Shown here in pieces: positions 2,096-20,461 of a stretch of 25,400 nt of DNA. Where the stretch lies: IMG/VR virus record IMGVR_UViG_3300033141_005567, positions 1 through 25,400 of that record. One strand, given 5' to 3'. The position numbers and the translations under genes were made by a program. Positions within the stretch are counted from its first letter, which is position 1, and each line of letters begins with the position of its first letter. Origin of the DNA: a virus. Under the pieces are notes generated by a model. That model did not search any database, had not been told where the DNA came from, and saw only the letters and a list, made by a program, of their open reading frames with translations.

Positions 2096-2568
2096 CCGAC
2101 ACCTGCCTCCGCCATGCGGGTGTACTCCTCGAGGAACTGGCGGTCGATCCGCTCGAAGAGCACCGCGTGCATTGCTTTGTAGCTTCGCCAGTCGGCGAAG
2201 AGTTTTCTCTCCTGGGGGTCAATCGCCGGCTCAATTGAGTTGGCGACATAGCTGTTGCCGTGTTCGTCCTCGAGCATCACGCTCTGGCCGTGGGGCTGCT
2301 CGGCCGTCGCGCCGCTGATGAGGTGCACGTACTGCATCCCCTGGTCGTAGCCGACCTCCTTGAACATCAGGGCGTAGCGCCAGAGCGCGACGTCGCCATC
2401 GGCGTCCACCTGCGGCATGGCCCGGAGCACCACGAAGCTGTCCACCTCGAACCGATGCGACCCGCCGTCGGGCAGGTAGATCGACATCGTCGCCCCGGGA
2501 GCGGTCACGGCGTCGAGCGCCGCCTGGAGCCGGGACTTCTCCGCCTGCACGATGTCCTTCATGCTCAT
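2092..2568 (-). CDS. hypothetical protein directly after the MuF gene
   Basis: This 158-residue acidic soluble protein has an N-terminal helix (residues 1-22), a strand-rich centre (28-110) and a charged helical C-terminus. I do not recognise its family. Its start overlaps the MuF stop by 4 nt (ATGA at 2565-2568), so its output is tied to that of the MuF protein. If the MuF enzymatic domains act as a toxin, this gene is in the place where a cognate immunity protein or chaperone would be expected. A minor structural protein is equally possible. Confidence 0.65.
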   Translation of the reverse strand: MSMKDIVQAEKSRLQAALDAVTAPGATMSIYLPDGGSHRFEVDSFVVLRAMPQVDADGDVALWRYALMFKEVGYDQGMQYVHLISGATAEQPHGQSVMLEDEHGNSYVANSIEPAIDPQERKLFADWRSYKAMHAVLFERIDRQFLEEYTRMAEAGVG

Positions 2569-5500
2569 GGCACCACCACGATGTCCTGGACGCGCCGCCC
2601 GTCGGGCAGCCGCGTGATCCCGTGTTTCTTGAAGGCCTGGATGACCTGGCGCCGCTGCGCCTCAGAGCCGACGGCAATGACGTCGATGTTGTCGAGCAGG
2701 GTGACCGAGTACTTGAAGATGGTCTCGTCGGAACCACCGCGCGACGCGATCTGCCTCCACTCCTTGACCGTGCTCTTGCGGTTCTTGCGCACCGTCTGGG
2801 CCGTCACGCGCCCGAACCGGTCGCCGCTGTAGGTGATGGCGTCCATGCGCCGAAGCATCCGCTTCTTGAAGTAGAGGCCGGGCGAGCTGGACCCGCCGCG
2901 CTGGCCGGGGAGCTTCCGGATGCGGGTGAAGAAGTACGCGGCGCCGCCGGTGTCCATATCCGACTCCGGCGACATGCCGCCAGTCTTCACCCCGATCCGC
3001 ATCTTCTCGATGGTCGAGGCCATCGCCCCGTTGTTGCCGAGCATCTCATCGAGGAACCCCGCCATGCCCGAATCGTCGGTGAGACGGTGGTAAAGGGCGT
3101 GGCCGGGGAGGTCCCGCTCAAGGTCCTCGTCCGAGATGTCGAACCGCATCTGGTGGCGGTAGCCGGCTCGCCTCGACGGATCGTCCCACTGCGCCTGGTG
3201 CTCGCCCATCGGGTCGTAGCCGGGCATGCGGGTGATGTCATCCACGCCGAGGCGCCGCTCCCAGTAGGAGCGCAGCCGGGCGATCCGCTCCTCCTTGCTG
3301 GCGCCCTTGCGGTCCAGCTCCCGCACGGCCTTCTTGTACTCCGCCGAGGTGTCCACCTTCAGCACGTAGGCCTGCTTCTGGAGATACAGCAGCTCGGCGT
3401 CCTCAGGCGTGGCGATGGTGGCCGTGATGCCCATGCGGTCCAGGCGCTCCATCACCTGCTCGAAGCGCTTGGGGTCGGGGTCGCCGTCGAAGTGCAGCTC
3501 GAACTCGCCCTGCTGGGCGTAGTAGTTCTGGCCGACCCACGGCTTGTAGGTGGCCGTGATCCCGTCGCCGAGGTCGATCTCATACTGGACGCCGTCCTTC
3601 ATGGACCGGCCGAATACCTCGCCGGTCGACGCGTGCTCCTGCACCACATGGAGGCGCCCCTTGCGCAGTTCCCGCAGCGGCATGCGGACCTTGGTCTTCC
3701 TTGCCGTGATGCCCTTGGCTGGCTCCGCGCGGTCGGGCTTGCTCTGGAACTGCTTGCGGTACTGGGTGAACTTGCCGGTGTACTTCTTGTTGGCCGAGGC
3801 GCCCTCCAGCACCTTCTCACACTCGGCTAGGTAGCCCTCCGCCATGGCGGCCACGTCCGGGTCGCTCGACTTCTGGAGCTTCCGGAGCTTGGCCCGCAGC
3901 TTGCGGACGCTCTCCAGCTTCTCCTGGTTGTAGGCGTAGTCGCCCTCGGTGACGTGGTGGTTGACGGTCTTCACGCCGCCCAGGATGGTGTCGTAGAAGG
4001 TGTCGTCCGGCAGCGTGTCGCCCACGTCGACGGTGAGCTTCTCGCCAGAGGTGACCGCCAGGCTCTTGAGCAGCTTCGGCTCGGCCTCGGGGCGGATCTT
4101 CATGCGGACCACGGTCCTGGGCTTCCCGCCCGCCGTCTCGACGAAGACCAGGGCGTTCTGGTCCTCCACGTCCTCGATGTCGAAGGGGACGACCTTCCCC
4201 TGCCAGCCTGCCCGCCGCGAATCCTCGAGGAGACCCGCCTCGGCCTTCCCGACGCGCGATGCCGGCTTCGGCTCCTCCTCCTCGAACCGGAAGCCCGGCT
4301 GTCCAAGGGCGCGGGCGTAGAAGCCCTCGAAGTCCCGGCGGATGCTTCGCTTTCGCTCGAGGGCTGCCCGGTAGAAGGCTTCCTTCTTGGCCTTGCTCCG
4401 GCCGAAGCGCCGGTCGGCGTAGGGGCGAAGCAACTCCAGGTACTCGTCGTCGCTGACCCGCTCGACCTCGCGGATGTGGCGCAGGGTCACCGACGGGTCC
4501 ACCCGCACCCGCCCCTGCTGGACGGCGCGGAAGACGGTGTTGTAGTACGGCTCGCTCTCGCCGTGGCCCGAATTGGGGTGGTAGTCGACGGACAGCTCGT
4601 CGTCGCCGAGGAACTTGAACAGCTGCCCCTTGTCGATGCCATAGACGCGGCCGCTTCGGGTACGGATGAACTGCTTGCCGTGCCCGTCGTGGTTCGAGAT
4701 GAGCCAGTCGATGACGTGCTCGCGCTGGAGCTGCTCGATGTCACGCGGCGAGAGGTCGCCAGGGTCGACGCCCGCGAAGTCCTTGTTGGACGCGACGTCG
4801 GTCCTCCACCGCTGGATGGAGCCGACCCGGCCGTCCAGTGTGATGACGCGCACCTCGATGGCTTCGGGGTCGATGAGTCTGCCGATCCGGTATCCGACCT
4901 CGTCGCCGTGTACTCGGAACTCCTCGGACGCCGGCTTGAAGAGCCACCGCTCCCCGGTCTCGTCCTCGTAGAAGTACTTGGTGTGGGCGCCCTCGATCTC
5001 GGCCCGACCCACGAGCCGGAACCCCCTGGGCTTCGCCTCCCACGCCTTGTCGGCTTCCTCGAACTGGGCGCCCTTCTTCGAGTAGACGACCGGCTTGGGA
5101 GGCGCGGGCTGGGGAGGAGCGACGGGAGCCGGAGCGGGCGCCGCGGGCTTCGGCTTGGCCTTCTGCTTCGCGGGCTTCTTCCCGCCATGCTTCTCGGCCC
5201 ACTTTGCCCACTTGGCCTCGATGCTGTCCGACGCGGCCTGCACCTTGGCGGGGTCGGTCTCGGTGAGCAGGGTCGTCAGCTCACCCTTGTTCGCCCACTG
5301 GTAGTGGGTCACGCCCGCCTTCTGCGCGACCTTCTTGACCTCGCCGGCGGACATTCCCCCGACCATCTTCTGGAAGATCTCCTTCTTGAGGGTCACTTCC
5401 TTCGCGTGGGCAGCCACCTCCGCCTGGGGCACGATCCCCGACGCGGCGATCTGGTCCTCGGCAGCCTTGACCGCAGCCAGGAACGAGGCGCTGTCCTCGG

Positions 5501-7169
5501 GCTTCTCCGGCACCTGCACGGCGGCGGTCTTCGCGGCCAGGGTCTCCTTGGCCTGCGCGACCTTCGCAGCCTGCTGGACGTGGACGGCCTGCTGAGCGGC
5601 CTCGTGGCCGGCCGACTTGTTGAGCGCCTTGACGAGCTGCGCCTTATCCTTGAGCGGGGTGATGCCGTGCTTCTGCTTCGCCGCGGCAAGCTGCGTGCCC
5701 TTGAGGCCGGAGTGATCGACCCCAGGCTCGATCTCGTCGAGCAGCTCGATGACGTCGGCCTTGGTCATGGAGATGGGGATCCCCTTGCCCTTGGCCATGT
5801 CCTGCAGCTCTTTGAACTTGAACTGCTCGTAGCCCTTGCCGGCCGGCGTCACGGCCTCGACGGCCTGCTGCTGCGCCGTGGCCGCATACTTGGCCGTGAG
5901 CAGGTCGATCAGGTCCTGCTTCGAGCGCAGCGCGCCGATCTTGTACTGGGCGACTTTGGCCTTGAGGTTCTTGCCGGTCAGCCCCAAGTGGTCCACGCCC
6001 GGCTCGGCCTCGTCGAGCAGCTTGAGGAAGTCGGCCTTCGTCCGGGCGATGGAGATGCCCTGCTTCTTCGCGGCCGTCTGGAGCTGCTTGACGGTGAGGG
6101 TCTCGAAGTTGCCCGTCTTCAGGGCCTCGTTGACGACCGCGACGTCCGCCTTGACCTCCTTGGCCTGCGCGTCGACGTCGTCGGGCGAGAGGATGCAGCT
6201 CGGCTGCGCGGCAGCGGCATGGGCGGCCAGCGCCCCGGCGCCGCAGATGGGGAGATCGACGACCGCCGTGTGCCCGCAGCGACAGTTCGGATGCTTCGGC
6301 TGGCCCGGGAATTTGTCGATGGGGTACACCTTGCCGTCGAGCGGCTCGCACTCGGCGCACATCCGCTCGTCGTCCATCGTCATCCATTCGAGCTTGCGGA
6401 CACCGACCGTCGAGTAGAACTTCCGCTGTCCCTGGCTGTGGGCGCGCATCGTCTCCGTGCGGGCGATCAGCTCCATCCGGGTCTGGGCCTTGCCGAAGAC
6501 CCTTTTGCCCGCGTGGCGGAAGGCTTCCTTGTCGATGACGACCGTGCCCATCTCCCGGGCGATGTCGCGGACGGACATGCCCGTGGCGATCCCGGCCTGG
6601 ATCGTGCGGTTGATACCGCTCGCCAGGTCCCGGGAGACGTCTCCGGCGAGTTGGATGTTGAACCGCGTCATGAAGTCGAGCGCCGACGTGTCGACGACGG
6701 TGAAGACGTTCGTCGTCATCTTGTCGATGCCCGCCTCGTCGAGGTCGCGGTAGAAGGGCAGCTGCGCCTCGACAAACTCCTCGATCCCGTGGCCGATGCC
6801 GCGCTTGAAGCTCTCCGTGCTGGCGCGCCCGAGGATCAAACGGTGCTCGTCGCGGACATGGGCGACGATGGCGCGGATCTCACCCTGGAGCCGCCGCAGG
6901 CTCCGCTGGCTCGCCACCTTGCCTTCGGGCAAGTCACCGAGGGTGCTGTAGTGGAGCAGAGCGGCCTTGACGTCCTTCTCGGCGCGGGCCAGCGCCTCAG
7001 TGATCTTGGCCGCCGTCTTCGCGCCGTAGGCGTTGCGCTTCCTATAGGCGCGCTCGGCCCACTCGCGGATGCGCTGTGCCTGCGGCTTCCTGGGCGCGGC
7101 CCGGGCGCGGAGGACGGCGGTCCCCGTCATGCCGGCATCCCTGAATGCTGTCTCGACAGCTACCGGCAT
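2565..7169 (-). CDS. giant MuF head morphogenesis protein with kinase-like and other domains
   Basis: This 1534-residue protein begins at an ATG 8 nt after AGGAG. A GTG three codons upstream is possible but has no ribosome site. Residues about 155-305 are the phage Mu gpF-like head domain, with the typical RTETMRAHS stretch and the Cys/His pairs CAEC (271-274) and HPNCRC (293-298). Residues about 350-530 and 605-650 hold SAP/HeH-like helix repeats that usually bind DNA. A Pro/Ala/Lys linker follows at 665-705. Residues about 717-955 look like a PI3/4-kinase or HipA-type kinase, with the FKPA lysine (745), SNHDGHG (825-831) and the metal-binding IDKG (845-848). The last 200 residues are an unknown domain. 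Plain MuF proteins are far shorter, so this is a fusion. It overlaps the portal gene by 10 nt and would be a minor capsid protein, possibly injected with the DNA. Confidence 0.85.
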   Translation of the reverse strand: MPVAVETAFRDAGMTGTAVLRARAAPRKPQAQRIREWAERAYRKRNAYGAKTAAKITEALARAEKDVKAALLHYSTLGDLPEGKVASQRSLRRLQGEIRAIVAHVRDEHRLILGRASTESFKRGIGHGIEEFVEAQLPFYRDLDEAGIDKMTTNVFTVVDTSALDFMTRFNIQLAGDVSRDLASGINRTIQAGIATGMSVRDIAREMGTVVIDKEAFRHAGKRVFGKAQTRMELIARTETMRAHSQGQRKFYSTVGVRKLEWMTMDDERMCAECEPLDGKVYPIDKFPGQPKHPNCRCGHTAVVDLPICGAGALAAHAAAAQPSCILSPDDVDAQAKEVKADVAVVNEALKTGNFETLTVKQLQTAAKKQGISIARTKADFLKLLDEAEPGVDHLGLTGKNLKAKVAQYKIGALRSKQDLIDLLTAKYAATAQQQAVEAVTPAGKGYEQFKFKELQDMAKGKGIPISMTKADVIELLDEIEPGVDHSGLKGTQLAAAKQKHGITPLKDKAQLVKALNKSAGHEAAQQAVHVQQAAKVAQAKETLAAKTAAVQVPEKPEDSASFLAAVKAAEDQIAASGIVPQAEVAAHAKEVTLKKEIFQKMVGGMSAGEVKKVAQKAGVTHYQWANKGELTTLLTETDPAKVQAASDSIEAKWAKWAEKHGGKKPAKQKAKPKPAAPAPAPVAPPQPAPPKPVVYSKKGAQFEEADKAWEAKPRGFRLVGRAEIEGAHTKYFYEDETGERWLFKPASEEFRVHGDEVGYRIGRLIDPEAIEVRVITLDGRVGSIQRWRTDVASNKDFAGVDPGDLSPRDIEQLQREHVIDWLISNHDGHGKQFIRTRSGRVYGIDKGQLFKFLGDDELSVDYHPNSGHGESEPYYNTVFRAVQQGRVRVDPSVTLRHIREVERVSDDEYLELLRPYADRRFGRSKAKKEAFYRAALERKRSIRRDFEGFYARALGQPGFRFEEEEPKPASRVGKAEAGLLEDSRRAGWQGKVVPFDIEDVEDQNALVFVETAGGKPRTVVRMKIRPEAEPKLLKSLAVTSGEKLTVDVGDTLPDDTFYDTILGGVKTVNHHVTEGDYAYNQEKLESVRKLRAKLRKLQKSSDPDVAAMAEGYLAECEKVLEGASANKKYTGKFTQYRKQFQSKPDRAEPAKGITARKTKVRMPLRELRKGRLHVVQEHASTGEVFGRSMKDGVQYEIDLGDGITATYKPWVGQNYYAQQGEFELHFDGDPDPKRFEQVMERLDRMGITATIATPEDAELLYLQKQAYVLKVDTSAEYKKAVRELDRKGASKEERIARLRSYWERRLGVDDITRMPGYDPMGEHQAQWDDPSRRAGYRHQMRFDISDEDLERDLPGHALYHRLTDDSGMAGFLDEMLGNNGAMASTIEKMRIGVKTGGMSPESDMDTGGAAYFFTRIRKLPGQRGGSSSPGLYFKKRMLRRMDAITYSGDRFGRVTAQTVRKNRKSTVKEWRQIASRGGSDETIFKYSVTLLDNIDVIAVGSEAQRRQVIQAFKKHGITRLPDGRRVQDIVVVP

Positions 7170-8758
7170 CCCGCACACTCCTCAGCGCCCATGGGCCTGC
7201 CAGCCGGGGTTTCGGCGGAGGCTGGCCGCGCCGTGGCATCTGCCGCTGGCGTCGTCACGGTGTCCTCGCTGGCCTCGAAGTAGCGGCAGGCATTGCTGTC
7301 GAACCGCGTCTCCGTCTCGCGGATGGAGCACCAGTTCTCGTCGGCGTCGAAGTACTCGCAGTCGTCGCAGATCGCCTCGGGGACGTCGACCCGGGAGAAC
7401 AGCCTCGTGGCCACCTCCAGACGCTCCGCCTCGGTCTGGTTCTTCTCCTGCGGGATGCCCAGCGCCTCGCGGGCGTACGCCGGGGTGATGACGCCGGCGT
7501 TGACCAGGTCGACGATGGGCTTGACCGCTTTCTCGTCGGTCAGCTCGATCTCCTTCCGCTCGGCCTCCGTCTGCACGGCCTCGACCTCGGGGTCGAGCTG
7601 CATCCGCACCTGGAGGCTCTTGCGGGAGATGAGCCGGCGGTCGTACAGCTCGACGAGCAGTTTCCTGAGATCGGCGTCGTCGCTGAGGTCCAGATCGTTG
7701 AAGAGCACCTCGACCGTCTTCTCTCCGTAGCCCTTCATCTCCTGCCAGTCGTCGAGCACCCAGCGAATGATCCGGCGGGCCACCCCCTTGATCTCGCCGA
7801 GCATGATGATCATTTTCTGCATCGACACCGACGCCGTGGCGAAGTTGGGGCCGTCGCCGGTGACGATGCTCCGTGCCAGGCCGAGGGCGACGATGACGTC
7901 TTCCTTGATCTCCTTGACCTTCTTCTCCGTGTCGAGCACCTCGCCCTCGGTGCCGTAGGTCTTCACGCTGCAGTAGAACGGGACGACCATCCCTGCCTTG
8001 AGGTCCATCTTGCTGAGCATGTCGCGCACGCGGTCGATCATCCCCTGGTCGGGCATGATGAGCTTCGAGCCGAACTGGCCGCCCACCTGGACGAAGCGCA
8101 GCGGCGTGGTCCACCGCTTGGCGATGGCCTGCTCGCTCTTGCGGTAGTCGCGGAGCAAGGCGATGGCGTGGAAGGCCGCGAGGACGATGCTGTTGCCGCG
8201 CGGCGAGAAGCTCGGCGCGTCCCACTTGAGGTGCAGGAGCTGCTCCAGCGGCAGCTCGACCCCCTCGCCGATGGCTCCCTCCTCGGGGAACTGTTTGACC
8301 TCGGTCAGCTCCCCCTGGACGACCTTGAGCTTGACCGACACCGGGTTGATGCACTGCACCGCGGCGATCTCGTCGCCCTTCTCGGTGTAGGTCTTGTAGC
8401 CCACGCAGTCGCCCTTGACGAGGAGCTGGAGGACCATGTCGCGCACGAAGGCGTCGAGGCCGACCTGCTCGGCAAACTCGCAGACCTCTGCCTCGATGTC
8501 CTCGTCCTCGCAGGTCAAGGCGACCTTGTCGCCTATCGCAAAAGTGCGCCAGGCGTTGACGGCGTTCTTGACGATGGGTTCCTCGGTGTAGTACTCCCAC
8601 GCCAGCTTCGCGCGCTCCTCCCACGTCTCCGGCACCGCCTCCTCGACGTTGAGCTTGCGGAAGGTGTCGGAGTCGAGGGCCGCGGCGGCCGCGAACTGGT
8701 CGGGAGTCACGGCGACCACCGTCAGCTTGCCGTCGTTGTCCTGGCAGATGATCTGCAC
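7160..8758 (-). CDS. phage portal protein
   Basis: This 532-residue protein starts at GTG behind GAAGGA. It has the usual portal layout: a helical N-terminus, a strand-rich wing around residues 110-200 (QLLVKGDCVGYK, then QLLHLKWDAPSFSPRGNS), the long helical stem and crown with alternating charged helices, and a flexible tail. Portals form the dodecameric ring at one capsid vertex through which terminase pumps DNA and to which the tail joins. The adjacent MuF gene supports the call. The C-terminus carries a compact four-cysteine motif (about residues 464-493, CDDC then C and C) and a last CAGC, which could bind metal and is not a standard portal element. The product call is secure, while the exact portal family is not. 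Confidence 0.85.
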   Translation of the reverse strand: MQIICQDNDGKLTVVAVTPDQFAAAAALDSDTFRKLNVEEAVPETWEERAKLAWEYYTEEPIVKNAVNAWRTFAIGDKVALTCEDEDIEAEVCEFAEQVGLDAFVRDMVLQLLVKGDCVGYKTYTEKGDEIAAVQCINPVSVKLKVVQGELTEVKQFPEEGAIGEGVELPLEQLLHLKWDAPSFSPRGNSIVLAAFHAIALLRDYRKSEQAIAKRWTTPLRFVQVGGQFGSKLIMPDQGMIDRVRDMLSKMDLKAGMVVPFYCSVKTYGTEGEVLDTEKKVKEIKEDVIVALGLARSIVTGDGPNFATASVSMQKMIIMLGEIKGVARRIIRWVLDDWQEMKGYGEKTVEVLFNDLDLSDDADLRKLLVELYDRRLISRKSLQVRMQLDPEVEAVQTEAERKEIELTDEKAVKPIVDLVNAGVITPAYAREALGIPQEKNQTEAERLEVATRLFSRVDVPEAICDDCEYFDADENWCSIRETETRFDSNACRYFEASEDTVTTPAADATARPASAETPAGRPMGAEECAGCR

Positions 8759-12061: not shown

Positions 12062-12412
12062 ATGCCCAGCAAGCTCACCCTGAAGGACGCCGCGCCGCGG
12101 TTCATCGAGCACCTGCGGGCGGCAGGCAAGAAGGAGCAGACCCTCAGGACCTACGCCAAGGCCCTGGAGGTCGCCGTCGGCTTCTTCGGCGAGGGCAAAA
12201 CGCTCAAGTCGCTCTTCCCCGCCGCCGTGGGCCGCTTCCTGAACAGCGACGCGCTGCTCAAGAAGCCCAACGGCAAGGAGCGGGCGAAGCCGACCGTCGA
12301 CCAGATCGCCCGGGTCCTGCGGATGCTCCTGGAGTGGGCGCAGGCCCAGGGGCACGTCGAGAAGGTGGCGTTCCCGAAGGCCGCCATGCCCAAGCGCAAG
12401 CGAAAGGCATAG
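12062..12412 (+). CDS. stand-alone core-binding domain of a tyrosine recombinase
   Basis: This 116-residue protein starts at an ATG behind AAAGGAG. Residues 5-100 match the SAM-like N-terminal (core-binding) domain of phage integrases: AAPRFIEHLRAAGKKEQTLRTYAKAL, a central loop, and VDQIARVLRMLLEWAQAQG. The frame ends at a stop after a basic tail, and there is no catalytic domain or catalytic residue. A complete recombinase follows 4 nt later. It may be a DNA-binding partner that competes for or assists at the recombination site, or a remnant of a second recombinase. Upstream starts in the same frame lack a ribosome site and are not used. Confidence 0.75.
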   Translation: MPSKLTLKDAAPRFIEHLRAAGKKEQTLRTYAKALEVAVGFFGEGKTLKSLFPAAVGRFLNSDALLKKPNGKERAKPTVDQIARVLRMLLEWAQAQGHVEKVAFPKAAMPKRKRKA

Positions 12413-12416
12413 ACCC

Positions 12417-13301
12417 ATGCACACCAGGACGGCGATGGATCGCTTCCGCACACACCTCGAGGCCAACGCCAGCTCGACACACACCATCTCAAGCTACCTC
12501 CACGACCTGGGCCTGCTGGCCGAGGCGCTCGGAGCCGACGCTGAGCTCGAGGCCATCGGGACCGACGACGTCGCCCGCTTCCTGACGAGTGACCCCGTCA
12601 CGACCAAGGCCGACGGCTCGGCCAAGGCGCCGGGCTCGGTCGACAAGGTGAGGACCAGCGTCAAGGCATTCTTCCGCTGGGCGCACGAGTCGGGCCTCGT
12701 CGAGGCCAACCCGACCGCGGCCATCCGGCTGCGGCACAGGCGACGGCCGGCGCCCGATGTCCTCACGCACCAGGAGGCCCGCCACCTGGTCAAGACCATC
12801 GACCAGACCCGAGGCGCCAAGGCCCAGCGGGATGCGGCCCTCATCGACCTCATCCTCAACACGGGCCTCCGCGTCTCGGAGGCCCTCGGCCTCGACCTGG
12901 CCGACGTGAACGTAGCCGAGAGACATCTGACGGTGGCCGCCAAGGGCGGCGAGACCCACAAGGTGTTCCTCAATGCCAGGAGCCGGCGACGCCTCGGCGC
13001 CTACATCAGGAAGAGGAAGCAGGTCCTCGCCGAGAGCCAGGCGCTGTTCCTGTCCAATCGCCGCCGTCGGCTCTCGGTCCGCCAGGCGCAGCTCCTCGCC
13101 GAGGAGTGGCTGGCACGGGCCGGCATCGCCAAGAAGGTCACGGTCCACGGCCTCCGCCACACATTCGCCACGCTCCTCCTCGAGCGCACGGGCAACCTGC
13201 GGACCGTCCAGGAGGCGCTCCGCCATCGCAGCATCGCTACCACCGTGCGCTACACCCACCAGCCCAGCGAGGCCCTGACCGAGGCCCTCGAGGCCCTGTG
13301 A
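12417..13301 (+). CDS. tyrosine recombinase / integrase (XerC/D-like)
   Basis: This complete 294-residue enzyme has a core-binding domain at residues 5-100 and a catalytic domain at about 115-290. The active-site set is intact: R152 in NTGLRVSEAL, K176 in the beta hairpin, H244 and R247 in HGLRHTF, H270 in ALRHRS, and the nucleophile Y279 in TTVRYTH. The compact size and motifs are closest to XerC/XerD and integron- or phage-type recombinases. It cuts and rejoins DNA at a short site with two arms around a 6-8 bp spacer. It is in an operon with the preceding core-binding protein and is opposite in strand to the terminase genes on both sides. An ATG at 12435 is an alternative start. Confidence 0.93.
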   Translation: MHTRTAMDRFRTHLEANASSTHTISSYLHDLGLLAEALGADAELEAIGTDDVARFLTSDPVTTKADGSAKAPGSVDKVRTSVKAFFRWAHESGLVEANPTAAIRLRHRRRPAPDVLTHQEARHLVKTIDQTRGAKAQRDAALIDLILNTGLRVSEALGLDLADVNVAERHLTVAAKGGETHKVFLNARSRRRLGAYIRKRKQVLAESQALFLSNRRRRLSVRQAQLLAEEWLARAGIAKKVTVHGLRHTFATLLLERTGNLRTVQEALRHRSIATTVRYTHQPSEALTEALEAL

Positions 13302-13349: not shown

Positions 13350-13830
13350 CTCTTCGCCTCGAACCAGAGCGCATGAGAGCTGCCGAGCATGCAGAGAGAC
13401 GACAGAAGCACAGAGCTCAGGGAACGACAGGTCACCGAGAGGTGTGCTCGCCCACGCGGCATTCGTCGTAAGCCCGTGCCCCCGGCCGACCTGGGGCGGC
13501 GTACCCTCAAGCGACCCTCTTCTGACCCTCGAACACCCTCTCGACACCCGAGACGAAGAAGAACACTTATGCTGCCCCGACAGAGCGCCGACAGACCGGA
13601 GAGAGCGGGGCCGAGCGTCGCCGGCCTTCGTCGAGCCGGCGAAACTTCGATCAGACAACCCTTCGACCCGCCCGTTCCGAAAGCAGTCTCCGTCGATGAG
13701 CTGTCCGACTGCTCGCGTGCGCCCAAACAGTGCTTGACCCCCCGCCGGAGGCATTGCTTCGGCCGGATTCCTCGCAAGCAATGTCGGCGCCCCCTGCGGG
13801 TGCCCCTTCCGGGCCTCCCGGCGCGGCGCT

Positions 13831-14173
13831 CCGGCGCCCCGCGTCCATCGCTCCGTGACGCCCGTGGCCTCGCCCCCGGCGGCCGCCAGGCGGCCCACGT
13901 CGGCCCGTGTCGCGTTCCCTTGCGCCTCCACGGCCCTGGGGTCGAAGGCCCGTGCGAACGCCGCCCTGTGGCCAGCGCCGGCGACCGCTTGGCAGGCCGG
14001 ACTCACGCCGGCCCCAACGCACCGCGTCCATCGCCTTGGGACGGCAGGCGCCTCGCCCCCAACGGCCCACAGGCGGCCCCCGTTGGCCCGTGTCGCGTCC
14101 TTCGCCGGCCGCTCGGCTACAGGCTCGAAGGCCGGCCCGAACGCGGCCCTGTGGCCAGGGTGGGCCACCGTGA
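13831..14173. repeat. imperfect tandem duplication, 183-nt period, non-coding
   Basis: The block 13831-13990 aligns without gaps to 14014-14173 at a constant 183-nt offset. By hand count about 117 of 160 positions match, with long identical runs such as GCGTCCATCG. The mismatches fall about equally on all three codon positions, so although 183 is a multiple of three there is no sign of coding selection in any frame. The whole gap 13302-14424 has no gene I can support. It holds this repeat, the hairpin after the recombinase, a dif-like site and two hairpins after the small terminase. Confidence 0.7.
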
Positions 14174-14424: not shown

Positions 14425-14973
14425 TTACTTCTGCGTTCTGTCGGCATCGCTGGCTTCTCCTGGCTCGTCGGTGGCGTCCTTCCCGCCCTTGCCGCTGTCC
14501 TCAGTGCTGGCCTTCCGGACCTCCCGAAGCAGATCAGCCGCCCACTGGGCCGGCGTGGTCGCCATCTCCTTGCCATCGCTCTCGCGGGTGATCTTCGTGG
14601 CCTTGAGGTCCTTGAGGCTGTCGCGAACGATCCTGGCCTGGACGTTCGCCGCGTCCTCTTTGCCCGCCTTCTGCGCCCTGACGAACTGCAGGAAGGCCAT
14701 GGCCGCCATGTGGACGGCGACCTCGTCTGAGGAGTCGTTGAACTCGAAGTCCTCGCGGATCCTGGCGACGAACCCATCGTAGACCGCCTGCTCTTCCTCG
14801 TTGAGCACGCGCGCGGCGTAGGCCCCGTGGATCAGCGAGTTGAGGTTGCCCTTCGTCGCGCCGCCGCGAGCGCCGTGCATGTAGCAGACCCGCTTGCCCG
14901 GTGCGGCCGGGCGCTTGCACCGCTCACCGCTTTGCTTGCTCTTCGCCGTGCATCGTCTGCTGTCGTCAACCAT
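14425..14973 (-). CDS. terS: probable terminase small subunit with N-terminal zinc knuckle
   Basis: This 182-residue protein has C8, C19, C30 and H33 near the N-terminus (RCTAKSKQSGERC, then CYMHG). These are followed by GGATKGNLNSLIHGAY, a stretch typical of small terminase subunits and related phage DNA-binding proteins of this zinc-knuckle type. The rest is charged helix suited to oligomerisation. Small terminases recognise the packaging start site and load the large subunit. The same cysteine spacing occurs at the N-terminus of TerL, which supports the pairing. The ATG at 14973 has only a weak ribosome site (GAGAAA). An intrinsic terminator lies just upstream at 15022, so the gene probably has its own late promoter. 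The recombinase genes separate it from terL. Confidence 0.7.
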   Translation of the reverse strand: MVDDSRRCTAKSKQSGERCKRPAAPGKRVCYMHGARGGATKGNLNSLIHGAYAARVLNEEEQAVYDGFVARIREDFEFNDSSDEVAVHMAAMAFLQFVRAQKAGKEDAANVQARIVRDSLKDLKATKITRESDGKEMATTPAQWAADLLREVRKASTEDSGKGGKDATDEPGEASDADRTQK

Positions 14974-15795: not shown

Positions 15796-16083
15796 CTACC
15801 ACTGGAATTCCGGCGTTTCAAGCGAAATCTTTTTACTTTTTTTCGCCTGCGCCTCCCGCTGCTCCTGGATGATCTGCTGCACGCGCCGTCGGCTCAACCC
15901 GCTCAACTGGGCGATCTCGCGGGTCGACACGGCCTGCTCGCTGAGGCGCAGGATCAGCTCGGCGCGCTGCTTGTAGTAGCCGTCGGTCTTGGGGATGTAG
16001 ACCATGCCCACGCAGTACTCCCGCACCTTCTGGAGGAGCTCCTTGGGCATCACCGACGCGGCGTTGACATATGGATGCTTCAT
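15796..16083 (-). CDS. small helix-turn-helix protein, CD3324/Mor-like
   Basis: This 95-residue protein starts at an ATG behind AAGGAG and overlaps the previous stop by 4 nt (ATGA at 16080-16083). Residues 12-32 (MPKELLQKVREYCVGMVYIPK) and the helix-turn-helix at about 41-75 (AELILRLSEQAVSTREIAQL, then LSRRRVQQII) match the CD3324 group of small proteins related to the Mor transcription activator. Such proteins bind DNA and regulate phage or mobile-element genes. The C-terminus is basic and includes a run of seven A residues in the coding strand. It lies between the replication module and the terminase genes, the usual place for a switch to late expression. The target is unknown, though the GGGTAGAC repeats upstream are candidates. 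Confidence 0.75.
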   Translation of the reverse strand: MKHPYVNAASVMPKELLQKVREYCVGMVYIPKTDGYYKQRAELILRLSEQAVSTREIAQLSGLSRRRVQQIIQEQREAQAKKSKKISLETPEFQW

Positions 16084-16679
16084 TCGCTGTCTCCTTGTTC
16101 CTGCTGGCCAGGGCCTCGGCAGATCTCGACGAGGCTGCCTTCGAGGGTCTGGGCCGTCTGGGCCATGAAGTGGATCTCTTCGGGGGTGAACTCGAGGCGC
16201 TTCTTCCCGGTGCGCTCCGGCACCAGCCACACGTGCTCGGCGCAGAGCGGGGTCTCGATCTCGTAGGCCACGCCCTGGGCCTTGAAGTCCTCGATCTGAT
16301 CCTGAGCCAGGAGAGCCGCCGGAGTCTGTCCCTCGGTGTCATCGTCGGCATCGGCCTTTGTGTCAGGAGAGCGGGCGCGCTCGATCCTCTTGTTGGCCAG
16401 GTGCTCGGCGATCAGGCTGACCACGCGTCTGAGGAAGACGTTGGCCTGGCAGAAGGACCCCGCGTCCCGGTATTCGCAGTGGGTGCAGTCGAAGCGCCTG
16501 AGCGGGTCCTCCTCGTGGACGCAGCGCTTCCCCTCGGCGTAGAGCTCGTAACATCGCGTCAGGACCTTCGACCACTGCTCCTGGAGCTTGCGCATCGGAT
16601 CGGCGTCGTCACGCGGCTTCTCGGCGCCGGCGTCCGAGGCCTCCGTCGGATTCCCGGCGTCCAGGTAGTTCCTCACCAT
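16080..16679 (-). CDS. cysteine-containing hypothetical protein
   Basis: This 199-residue protein starts at an ATG behind GAGGAG. Residues 43-77 hold five cysteines (C43, C53, C65, C68, C77, with a central CTHC pair), which suggests a zinc-binding fold. A flexible acidic segment (about 105-120) separates this from a C-terminal domain (125-185) with the pattern of a strand-rich module. I do not recognise a family. It is translationally coupled to the helix-turn-helix protein that follows. It is the first gene after the GGGTAGAC repeat region and its transcript would begin inside those repeats, so it is probably controlled by them. Confidence 0.7.
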   Translation of the reverse strand: MVRNYLDAGNPTEASDAGAEKPRDDADPMRKLQEQWSKVLTRCYELYAEGKRCVHEEDPLRRFDCTHCEYRDAGSFCQANVFLRRVVSLIAEHLANKRIERARSPDTKADADDDTEGQTPAALLAQDQIEDFKAQGVAYEIETPLCAEHVWLVPERTGKKRLEFTPEEIHFMAQTAQTLEGSLVEICRGPGQQEQGDSE

Positions 16680-16701
16680 CGCGGTCTCCTCGTGGCGTTA
16701 T

Positions 16702-17047
16702 GGGTAGACACTGGCTGCTTCCGGGCACAGCGTAGGCAGACATCGGAGCGGTCGACAGAGCGGTCTACCTGCAGCTAAGTTCTTGCTGGCCAACGTCTTG
16801 CTTCGTTCGTGGGTAGACAGGTAGACCGATCTCGAGGGTAACGGGGCCCGTATATGGGTACTGCGCGGATCTCTGACTCCGGGGATGTCGAGACCCAAAG
16901 CCTTACGTGACTCTTGTTGTACTGAGAAAGAGTCTACCCAACTACCCATGACTCTCACATGCTCCTGACAGACAAGGACTTGAGCCTGGGTAGACCTGGG
17001 GGTAGACCGTGGGTAGACCGGGCATGCAGGTCGACCCGTCTACCCAC
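16702..17047. repeat. GGGTAGAC repeat cluster, candidate replication origin or operator region
   Basis: The gap 16680-17050 has no supportable gene. GGTAGAC occurs nine times here: plus strand at 16702, 16811, 16820, 16988, 17000 and 17011, minus strand at 16763, 16932 and 17038. Seven copies are the full GGGTAGAC. Three plus copies are spaced 12 and 11 nt apart, about one helical turn. The outer pair GTGGGTAGAC (17009-17018) and its complement (17038-17047) form a 10-bp hairpin 3 nt after the primase-helicase stop. Iterons beside a replication gene often mark an origin, and operators of the next genes are the alternative. Confidence 0.65.
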
Positions 17048-17050
17048 AGC

Positions 17051-20000
17051 TCACGCGAACAGGTCCATGTCGGCTCCCACACCGCCAAGAACTCCTTCCG
17101 CCATGCAGTAACAGGCGATCCTCTCGCCGTTCACCCGCAGCCTCCACGTGCTCTTCGCCGGCCCTCCACCGTCGTTGGGGACGACCAGGCCGTCCGCGAA
17201 GAGTTGCGCGCTGATGCCGCGCGTGCTGTACTCGAGCGAGCGACCGCCGCGGCGCAGATACTCGGAGACCTCCTTGATCGCCACGTCGCGGACGATGTAG
17301 ACCCTGTCCTCGTGCGCGTAGCCGACGATGTCCGCCGACGCGACGTCCGCTCTGAAACTGAAGCGCCCCGCTCCGGTGGGCTGAAGAGTCCCGAGGGTCA
17401 GGCGTCGGGTCGCAAGGAGCGAGCGGAGGACATCGAGGAAGATCACGCTCGCACGTTCGTCGCGGACCATGGCGCCGGTCTCGCCGATCGCGCCCAGCGC
17501 CCACTCGGAGTGTTCGCGCACGTGTTGCTCCGCCTGCCCCGCAGAGACCACGCCCCGTTCCTCGAGGAATCCGAAGAACAGGTTCAGGCCGGTGAGCATG
17601 AGGGCGAAGTTCTGAAGGATGCGGGGGCGGTTCTCCATCTGCGCGCTCCCCAGCGCCGCGTCGAGCCGCTGATAGTAGGAGGCGACGAGGCCATCGAGCT
17701 GCTCGTCGGGGATCCTCTGGGTCCACGCGACGTAGTGCGCCATCAGCCCGCGGTACAGATGCTGGCGCTCCAGGCACCGCGCGTAGAGGTCGCTGAGCTC
17801 CGGGGTATAGCGGTTCGCGTCGAAGCTGACCTCGATCATCCGGGCGAGGTTCGACGCCTCGCCCTCGGGGAGGTCCTCGCCCGTCACGAGCAGCATCCCT
17901 CGGATCATCTCGCCTTCCTTGAATTCGGCGTTGCGCTTGAGGCGGCCCCGCTCGTTGCCGTCGGCGTATCCCTGAAGGATGCGGCGCGCGTCGTTCCACT
18001 GGTAGGCGCCGACGTTCGACCTCTTGAAGTCGTCGGTGACGAACAGCGCGCCGCTGAAGTAGAAGCCGGCCTTCTCGATCCGCTTCGGCGTGTTGCCCCA
18101 GGCCACGAGCGTGCCCTTGTCTTCGAAGCGCCCGAAGAAGTTCTGGTAGAGCTGAGCGACGGCGGTCTTGCCCTTGCCCGTCACGCCGCTGCAAAAGAGG
18201 ATGTAGGGGTTGTAGCGCGTGCGCAGGCGATGGTACACGGGGGCAAGGAACGTGTGAGCCGCCAGGCAGCGCGAGATGTGGATGGGCGCGAGGGCGAACA
18301 GTTCCTCGAGGATATGCCTGCCGACGAGAGCCACCTCCTCCGGCGACGCCACTGCGAGGTCGAGGCGCCGCACCGACTTGTTCTCGATGTGCGAGAGGTC
18401 GCAGAGCAGGTCGCCGCCGTCGTTCGGCCGGATCTCGCCGTCCTTGATGATGACCGACGGCGTGACGTAGCCCCACTTGGGGTGCGGTCCGAAGCACTGG
18501 AGGAAAGTGGTCCGCGGGTACTCGGCGAAGTGGACGCAAGTGTTCCGGATCCGCTCGAGGTCGATGGTCTCGAACTCCAGCATCGGGCCGGCGATGCCGC
18601 CCAGGCAGCGCGCCAGCAAATGGGCGCTGTAGAAGTCGTCCGACGCCATGGTGAAGGGAAAGCGCCTGCCGCCGTGGACGTGGATCGTCCCCTTGACCTG
18701 GCTCGTCGGCGTCCCGACGCCGTGGTCGACGATCCGTTCTTCCTCGATGGCCAGGCGGAAGTTCGAGATCGGCACCTCGCGGGTGAGGCGCTGTGCCACT
18801 TCGCCCTCCCACTCCCGCAGCTCGACCACGCGGTCGCCGCGAATGGCAAGCACGGCGTGCTTCCAGCGGTAGACCGACTCGTCCGTCGCAGCGTCGCGCG
18901 CACGCTGCTGCTTGGCTTCTCTCGCCTTGAGCGCGTGCTTGACGCTGTCGTCCAGCAGCCTCTTCGTGGGCTTGAGGGCGCCGCTGTAGTGCGCCTGCAG
19001 GAGGGCCTTGCATTCGTCCTGCCGGAGCGGGTCCAGCTCCGCGATGGCTTTGATCACGGGCCGCATCGCCTCGTTGCGGGCCCGGACCGTGGCCGGATGG
19101 GGGTCGAGCTTGCCGATCTGCCAGTGGACGGGAGACAGGGCTTCGGCCATCAGACCTCGGAAGTCGTCGGTCGACGCCGTGAGGAAGTACTCGTTGACGT
19201 CGATCTTGGCGTCGGCGAGGAGCTGCTCGGTCTGCTCCCGCTGGGCTTCGTCCAGGCCCTCCTTGGCGGCGTCGAGCGCCTTGGCCTCCATCCCCGCGTG
19301 GATGCCCAGCTCTGCCAGTTCGCCGCGCGCCTGCTCCTGCGTGGCGCCCAGGGGCAGCTCGACCAGCCGGACGTCGACCCCGTGCCTGCTCAGGTAGCTC
19401 GCGGTCTTGAGAGCGCCGGCCAGGCCGACGCCGCTGACCTCGTTGTCCTGGCAGATATAGACCCGCTGGGCGCCGCGGACGAGCGCGAGCAGCTTCTCGT
19501 GGTCCTGGTCGCGGAAGGTCACCGTGACGGGCGAGACGGTAGGGACGCCGCGCTCAGCCAGGGCGATGCAGTCGGTCACCCCCTCGGTGATGACGACCTC
19601 GCTCGGGCCGGTGGCCAGGCAGTCCTCGTTGTAGAAGATGTCGTTCTGGATGGCTGGTGAGATGTAGGGCCGCCGCGTCGAGTGGGTGGGGAGCTTCTTG
19701 TACTTGGCCTTCTCGTAGTCCTTGGCCGGCGTCCACGGCGTCTTGCGGCCGATCAGATAGACGACCCAGCCCTGCTTCCAGTAGGGGAAGACAATACGGC
19801 CGCGGAGGAAGGGGTAGAACTCGCCGTCGTTGCCGCGCACGTAGAGGCCCGTGCGGTCGATGACCTTGCGGTCGTGGTTCTTCTCTCCGACCAGGTAGTG
19901 GTCGACGAGGCCGGTGTTGCCGGCGAAGCCGATCTTGAGCCGCTCGATGGTGTCGCGGCTGATGGCGTAGTGCTCGGTCAGCCAGCGCAGCGCTTCATCG

Positions 20001-20461
20001 TTAGCCAGCAGCTTCTGGTGGTAGTGCTCCGCCGCGTCGGTGAGCACCGCGAAGACAGCATCCGCTTCCTGGCGTCGGGCATCGGCCTTCTGCTGCTCCT
20101 CGGGGGAGAGGCCGAACTCGGTGAGTGGCGGGAGATCCTGCAGTGAGGCGAGGTAGTCCCGTGCCTGCCGGTGGCTCTCCGGCATCGGACCCTTGTGGTG
20201 GCTGGTGACGTGGCCCGACTGCACGAACTCGACGAAGTGCAATACGTCGCCGCCGACGTCGCAGCCCTTGCACCAGAAGGCCTGCTTCTCCGTGTCGACG
20301 ATCAGCGAGGCCTTCGATTGGCTGGCGTGGTGGGGACAGTCGAACCGGAGGGTGTGGCCATGCTCCGCTGTCAGGCGGTCTTCAAGGAGCCGGCGCGCCA
20401 CGGCGCCGATGTCGACGGCCGCGATCCGGTCGTAGTAGTCCCTGACGGTGTTCGGGTCCAT
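17051..20461 (-). CDS. primase-helicase fusion
   Basis: This 1136-residue replication protein has a CHC2-type zinc finger at residues 42-67 (CPHH, then CKGC). A linker and RNA-polymerase-like region run to about 280. A TOPRIM fold lies at about 287-370 with E293 in TEG and QDNE at 338-341. A superfamily 3/AAA-type helicase domain spans about 720-900, with Walker A GVTGKGKT (759-766), Walker B FVTDD (807-811) and a TGED sensor-like segment later. It would unwind the fork and prime synthesis in one chain, as phage primase-helicases do. The C-terminal 200 residues are helical and may be a DNA-binding domain. The GGGTAGAC repeats lie just past its end. No DNA polymerase is visible. Confidence 0.88.
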   Translation of the reverse strand: MDPNTVRDYYDRIAAVDIGAVARRLLEDRLTAEHGHTLRFDCPHHASQSKASLIVDTEKQAFWCKGCDVGGDVLHFVEFVQSGHVTSHHKGPMPESHRQARDYLASLQDLPPLTEFGLSPEEQQKADARRQEADAVFAVLTDAAEHYHQKLLANDEALRWLTEHYAISRDTIERLKIGFAGNTGLVDHYLVGEKNHDRKVIDRTGLYVRGNDGEFYPFLRGRIVFPYWKQGWVVYLIGRKTPWTPAKDYEKAKYKKLPTHSTRRPYISPAIQNDIFYNEDCLATGPSEVVITEGVTDCIALAERGVPTVSPVTVTFRDQDHEKLLALVRGAQRVYICQDNEVSGVGLAGALKTASYLSRHGVDVRLVELPLGATQEQARGELAELGIHAGMEAKALDAAKEGLDEAQREQTEQLLADAKIDVNEYFLTASTDDFRGLMAEALSPVHWQIGKLDPHPATVRARNEAMRPVIKAIAELDPLRQDECKALLQAHYSGALKPTKRLLDDSVKHALKAREAKQQRARDAATDESVYRWKHAVLAIRGDRVVELREWEGEVAQRLTREVPISNFRLAIEEERIVDHGVGTPTSQVKGTIHVHGGRRFPFTMASDDFYSAHLLARCLGGIAGPMLEFETIDLERIRNTCVHFAEYPRTTFLQCFGPHPKWGYVTPSVIIKDGEIRPNDGGDLLCDLSHIENKSVRRLDLAVASPEEVALVGRHILEELFALAPIHISRCLAAHTFLAPVYHRLRTRYNPYILFCSGVTGKGKTAVAQLYQNFFGRFEDKGTLVAWGNTPKRIEKAGFYFSGALFVTDDFKRSNVGAYQWNDARRILQGYADGNERGRLKRNAEFKEGEMIRGMLLVTGEDLPEGEASNLARMIEVSFDANRYTPELSDLYARCLERQHLYRGLMAHYVAWTQRIPDEQLDGLVASYYQRLDAALGSAQMENRPRILQNFALMLTGLNLFFGFLEERGVVSAGQAEQHVREHSEWALGAIGETGAMVRDERASVIFLDVLRSLLATRRLTLGTLQPTGAGRFSFRADVASADIVGYAHEDRVYIVRDVAIKEVSEYLRRGGRSLEYSTRGISAQLFADGLVVPNDGGGPAKSTWRLRVNGERIACYCMAEGVLGGVGADMDLFA

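Follow-up and report, generated by a model that had tools for sequence, protein, structure and literature searches.

In phage-inducible chromosomal islands and Staphylococcus aureus pathogenicity islands (PICI/SaPI), the C-terminal domain of the helicase recognizes iterons (PMC6092414, PMC7581432). PICI origins lie 3′ of the initiator gene, with an AT-rich stretch between two iteron sets, and have been described as different from every other bacterial replicon known (PMC6092414), while the primases of SaPIbov1 and SaPI5 are of the archaeo-eukaryotic type (PMC7581432). In the phage-inducible chromosomal island-like elements (PLE), only cognate pairs of RepA and origin (ori) replicate, and RepA domains covary with their origins (PMC8263062). 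Here we describe an array of short repeats next to the primase-helicase gene of a tailed phage, found in a 25.4-kb IMG/VR fragment (IMGVR_UViG_3300033141_005567; the whole fragment is called the window below). This array very probably serves as a replication origin made of iterons, which the C-terminal part of the fused primase-helicase would read.

Results and Discussion

The heptamer GGTAGAC occurs 12 times on both strands of the window, against 1.47 ± 1.37 expected, a count reached by no shuffle. Nine of the 12 lie within 16703–17044 and the other three elsewhere in the 25 kb; the nine-copy array reported in an earlier note on this DNA is thus real, and the similar density throughout the genome that the note had named as refuting it is not seen within the window. 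Simulating 300 windows with a Markov model gave at most 2 GGTAGAC in any 342-bp stretch, and the top count of any 7-mer per 342 bp is 9 in the real window and 4–6 in 20 simulated ones. The note's further details also hold: all seven copies of the extended word GGGTAGAC fall inside the array (five on the + strand, two on the −, none outside), the copies at 16989, 17001 and 17012 are spaced 12 and 11 bp, about one helical turn, and the inverted pair 17009–17021/17035–17047 is predicted to form a hairpin with 13-bp arms (−27.9 kcal/mol), though this hairpin is not among the features of the conserved layout described below. As a transcription terminator the hairpin was considered and rejected, a terminator-like site not being found in the region. 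The gap holding the array, between the stop of the primase-helicase (17051, −) and the start of a 199-aa gene (16679, −), is gene-free as had been claimed, with the flat GC-by-frame pattern of non-coding DNA. The array starts 6 bp past the primase-helicase stop, that is, directly 3′ of the putative initiator gene, where PICI/SaPI origins lie.

Related primases were gathered from viral contigs and prokaryotic genomes, and loci counted as assessable if the gene was closed and followed by 600 bp or more (n = 126 after removal of duplicates). Arrays of 5–13 exact copies of one 8-mer stand at 104 of these; outside the array, any 8-mer reaches mostly 2–4 copies at the same 104 loci (5–7 in 6 of them) and at most 4 in Markov sequences. 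Since the primase served to collect these loci, its linkage to the array is in part built in; this does not hold for the covariation along the protein described below. In a first set of relatives an array was found near the primase in nearly every locus with a different word each time, and more than 30 distinct words occur overall, detection by exact 8-mers scoring closely related words as different. Arrays usually span about 300 bp, most starting no more than 200 bp past the primase stop and some 0.6–2.8 kb further. Genome contigs of bacteria and archaea also have them close to relatives of the primase; one cultured strain with such an element is Desulfosarcina alkanivorans. The closest relative, L026, is collinear with the window, at 80% identity in the helicase and mostly 72–88% in the primase domain, and carries 13 copies of AGCCGGGA at the place of the GGTAGAC array. 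Across relatives the arrays agree in place, span, layout and copy number, whereas the letters of the word vary. The search in related phages suggested by the earlier note therefore recovers the array but not its word, and lack of conservation, which that note offered as a refutation, misleads if applied to the letters.

The C-terminal halves of these proteins form three main classes (A–C), the pair of window and L026, and a few single loci; class C has a VapE-like domain, and L164 has D5_N and Pox_D5 domains. In class B, with many members from Acidobacteria, the array lies mostly inside the final 400 bp of the open frame. At L061, L066, L133, L153 and other class B loci it falls in the last ~400 bp of the primase-helicase frame, and the origin may there lie within coding sequence.

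When each word is oriented by its core pair, most arrays follow a near-dyad with copies at approximately −150>, −130>, −110<, −62> and −53> on the left and 53<, 62<, 110> and 130–150< on the right (bp from the centre), a scheme of the form (>,>,<,>>)-about 110 bp-(<<,>,<,<) around an AT-richer centre that is common to different words. The window has −162>, −154>, −135<, −124<, −112<, −64> (degenerate) and −56> on the left and 56<, 64<, 112> and 173< on the right. The degenerate copy GGGTAGTT (16940–16947, −), absent from the earlier note's list, completes the second core tandem pair. Layout was compared over 47 class/8-mer representatives, some of which are one word in two registers, so that about 35 distinct words underlie the tests. 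Agreement between classes amounts to 5.51 coincident copies against 3.91 ± 0.03 after shuffling. For the window against the 46 other arrays, a statistic with fixed word direction favours the window, and the fair version leaves direction free; it gives 5.20 coincident copies against 4.11 ± 0.35 shuffled, the best of 150 shuffles reaching 5.46. Mean GC of 46 arrays is 10–13% below that of the locus from −100 to +100. The array centre in the window is only moderately AT-richer, with a GC deficit of up to 21% in one 40-bp bin. Layout and GC profile together give two iteron sets flanking an AT-rich stretch, as in PICI/SaPI.

The letters of the word, in turn, follow the C-terminus of the primase-helicase. 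In class A, word identity is best explained by the last ~100 residues with the rest of the protein controlled (partial r 0.52, 0/500 permutations), and most other segments give values near zero or negative; in class C the strongest signal lies in the last 60 residues (0.64, 0/300). C-termini at least 90% alike have a common word in 97 of 101 pairs, these pairs not being independent of one another; of the remaining four, two belong to class C and two are wing changes in class A. L113 and L120, whose primase domains are 97% identical, carry NHR and KRY at the wing and the words TGCCGAAAG and TGTAGAAAG. Between L105 and L112 (98%), differences begin just before the wing, none lying ahead of that point, and the words are TGAGAAGG and GGTGAAAGG. 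In natural pairs differing mainly at the wing, half of the word differs. For the class A C-terminus, AlphaFold (pLDDT, predicted local distance difference test, 86) predicts structural elements in winged-helix order, with the swapped residues located between the last two strands, in the loop of the final hairpin; going by this model, the half of the word common to wing-swapped pairs may be read by the recognition helix. In the window, the C-terminus would be the reader by analogy with classes A and C and as the most diverged end relative to L026 (28% in the last 60 residues). A conserved protein downstream of the array was also considered as reader in class A and rejected, with a word–protein r of 0.03 given the primase C-terminus and of 0.51 in the reverse case.

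From these observations we infer a mode of action comprising binding, assembly of a double helicase, melting and a bidirectional start. The C-terminal winged-helix domain of the neighbouring primase-helicase would bind each copy of the word, and the two inverted tandem pairs, separated by about 110 bp, would together with the outer copies seat two facing helicase assemblies across the AT-richer centre. This centre would then melt, the helicases load and the fused primase start both strands. The word could drift or be swapped provided that all copies and the reading domain change together, and such joint change would make the origin of each phage private.

Several findings weigh against an iteron origin read in this way. 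Of the assessable relatives, 22 of 126 are without an array. In class B, word covariation is spread over the protein beyond the C-terminus; in class C, a weaker second signal lies at residues 301–360. The covariation was seen in classes other than the window's own, which has two members, and the model of the window C-terminus is poor (pLDDT 47). Cumulative GC skew, a check proposed in the earlier note, has its window minimum at 17374, near the array within a broad trough, but the change at the array is weak across the family (29 of 41 positive, mean +0.023 ± 0.007). Because the record is a 25.4-kb fragment, other origins may exist beyond the array. Finally, the repeat cluster that follows the alpha gene in P4 is the cis replication region (crr), required in cis and not the mapped ori, so that the array could be a helper site.

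This last point leads to the best-surviving alternative, in which the initiator binds the array as a crr-like helper or copy-control site and synthesis starts elsewhere. In its favour, P4 crr begins 46 bp beyond the alpha stop codon, and its type-1 repeats are those also found in P4 ori. The array, however, forms two facing halves around an AT-richer centre, a full match to one array half is commoner for P4 ori than for the P4 crr half, and a scan of the window for clustered words picked out no second array of the same word; we consider this alternative unlikely. A multi-site operator, which the earlier note had offered beside the iteron origin, would silence or control the 199-aa gene and the gene of a small regulator with an HTH_23 (helix-turn-helix) domain (15796–16100, −; CD3324-like according to that note, 50% identical in L026), bound by this regulator. 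The array does lie upstream of both genes, but it tracks the primase-helicase and not the regulator operon: L026 has an additional 207-aa open reading frame between array and 199-aa gene, about 100 loci collected by their primase have arrays, and it is the C-terminus of the primase that the word follows. With, moreover, no sigma-70-like promoter found in the array region, an operator is very improbable, and only the origin part of the earlier proposal stands. Least probable of all is a site for packaging (pac) or partition, to which the small terminase or a Par-like protein would bind. Repeats are also found at such sites, and a weak small-terminase match lies ~2 kb away (14425–14973), but position after the primase, word covariation with its C-terminus and similar arrays beside primase relatives on contigs of bacterial and archaeal genomes all speak against it.

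Table 1. Coordinates of the array, its copies and the primase-helicase in the window
Feature	Position	Strand	Basis
Iteron array, proposed replication origin; nine GGTAGAC plus degenerate copies	16701–17047		Sequence, counts, layout
Iteron copy (GGGTAGAC starting 16702)	16703–16709	+	Word count
Iteron copy, outer inverted, 112 bp off centre	16763–16769	−	Word count, layout
Iteron copy, left core tandem pair, first	16812–16818	+	Word count, layout
Iteron copy, left core tandem pair, second	16820–16826	+	Word count, layout
Central spacer, 105 bp, between inverted core pairs; AT-richer than genome; proposed unwinding region	16827–16931		GC profile
Iteron copy, right core tandem pair, inner	16932–16938	−	Word count, layout
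Degenerate copy GGGTAGTT, right core tandem pair, outer	16940–16947	−	Read from sequence; position expected from layout
Iteron copy	16989–16995	+	Word count
Iteron copy	17001–17007	+	Word count
Iteron copy in one arm of 13-bp hairpin	17012–17018	+	Word count, inverted-repeat search
Iteron copy in other hairpin arm	17038–17044	−	Word count, inverted-repeat search, folding
Primase-helicase, 1136 aa, proposed initiator; DnaG-type zinc ribbon and DNAG_N, Toprim-like part, P-loop ATPase part, C-terminal domain	17051–20461	−	Domain searches
Primase-helicase C-terminal part, proposed iteron reader	17054–17329	−	Inferred from classes A and C; divergence vs L026

The primase-helicase matches zinc ribbon, DNAG_N and phage-primase profiles, its Toprim score is under the curated cut-off, and the P-loop GVTGKGKT can be read directly in its sequence. 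The 199-aa gene past the array lies on the same strand and is without an assigned function. The gene set of the phage includes portal, head, large terminase, helicase, Sak4-like and Gp157 genes; a 1537-aa protein (2565–7178, −) with head-morphogenesis and endonuclease VII-like matches is probably a multi-domain head protein. A nucleotide search of known phages with the window and a search with the helicase half alone gave no matches, and a protein search of known phages gave partial matches of less than 30% identity, one of three records examined having host-like genes around dnaG. PDB sequence searches with the C-terminal half or domain returned no significant match, and a fold search nothing at E ≤ 0.001, with winged-helix proteins among the weak matches.

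Some observations concern the relatives themselves. A protein of ~265 residues (L107:11789–12619 and 93 other loci), without significant Pfam, PHROG or NCBIfam match, directly follows the array in most loci, even where the array is 2–3 kb from the primase; it was not found in the window. L009 has two arrays of the same word (12344–12634 and 13594–13896) about 1.2 kb apart. Elements in the same host assembly usually have different words (L124/L152, L110/L113, L119/L129, L135/L148 and L154/L157), as if same-word origins were incompatible, with L138/L159 having one common word.

More broadly, fused primase-helicases with unlike helicases, from bacterial phages, prophages and archaeal elements, may share one fixed origin geometry, with a short wing-to-word code allowing each lineage to rewrite all its iterons together, a proposal we hold to be evenly balanced. 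If true, origins would be private and mutually non-interfering, and the word predictable from protein sequence. Judged against the open-access literature, an origin type described as exclusive to phage satellites would be extended to about 100 phage and prophage loci. These loci form a natural data set of considerable size, in which the wing of the initiator and the word of the origin vary jointly at fixed geometry, making the coevolution of an initiator with about ten binding sites directly testable.

Comparison with Known Systems

The likeness to PICI/SaPI was judged on general organization (iterons, AT-rich centre, position). The window phage is no satellite, having portal, head and terminase genes of its own, and a DnaG-type primase sets it apart from SaPIbov1 and SaPI5, whose primases are archaeo-eukaryotic. 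Binding of iterons by the C-terminal domain of the initiator, a PICI/SaPI trait, may apply here too, the observation being sequence covariation in relatives only. PLE differ in having a RepA_N initiator and three ~30-bp semi-palindromic iterons, without a primase-helicase fusion (PMC8263062). Like P4 alpha, the window protein joins a Toprim primase to a P-loop helicase, and P4 likewise has 8-bp repeats, with crr directly after the alpha gene. Unlike the single array of the window, the P4 sites are split between crr and an ori ~4.7 kb away. The D5_N, DUF5906 and Pox_D5 domains of P4 alpha, the first and last also seen in L164, have no match in the window protein, and profile comparison of the two proteins gave no support. 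In 16 of the 47 arrays, against a null mean of 0.8, all six type-1 repeats of P4 ori have counterparts in one half of the array; in the window only four of the six do. As a non-satellite whose helicase part is without the D5/Pox_D5 domains of P4 alpha, the window is filed as a member of neither group. Given the PICI form of the origin, the precedent of RepA–origin covariation in PLE and the likeness to P4 ori and crr, it would work like a PICI/P4 replicon, and we conclude that its origin is organized like those of PICI/SaPI and P4, but in a tailed phage with a DnaG-type primase.
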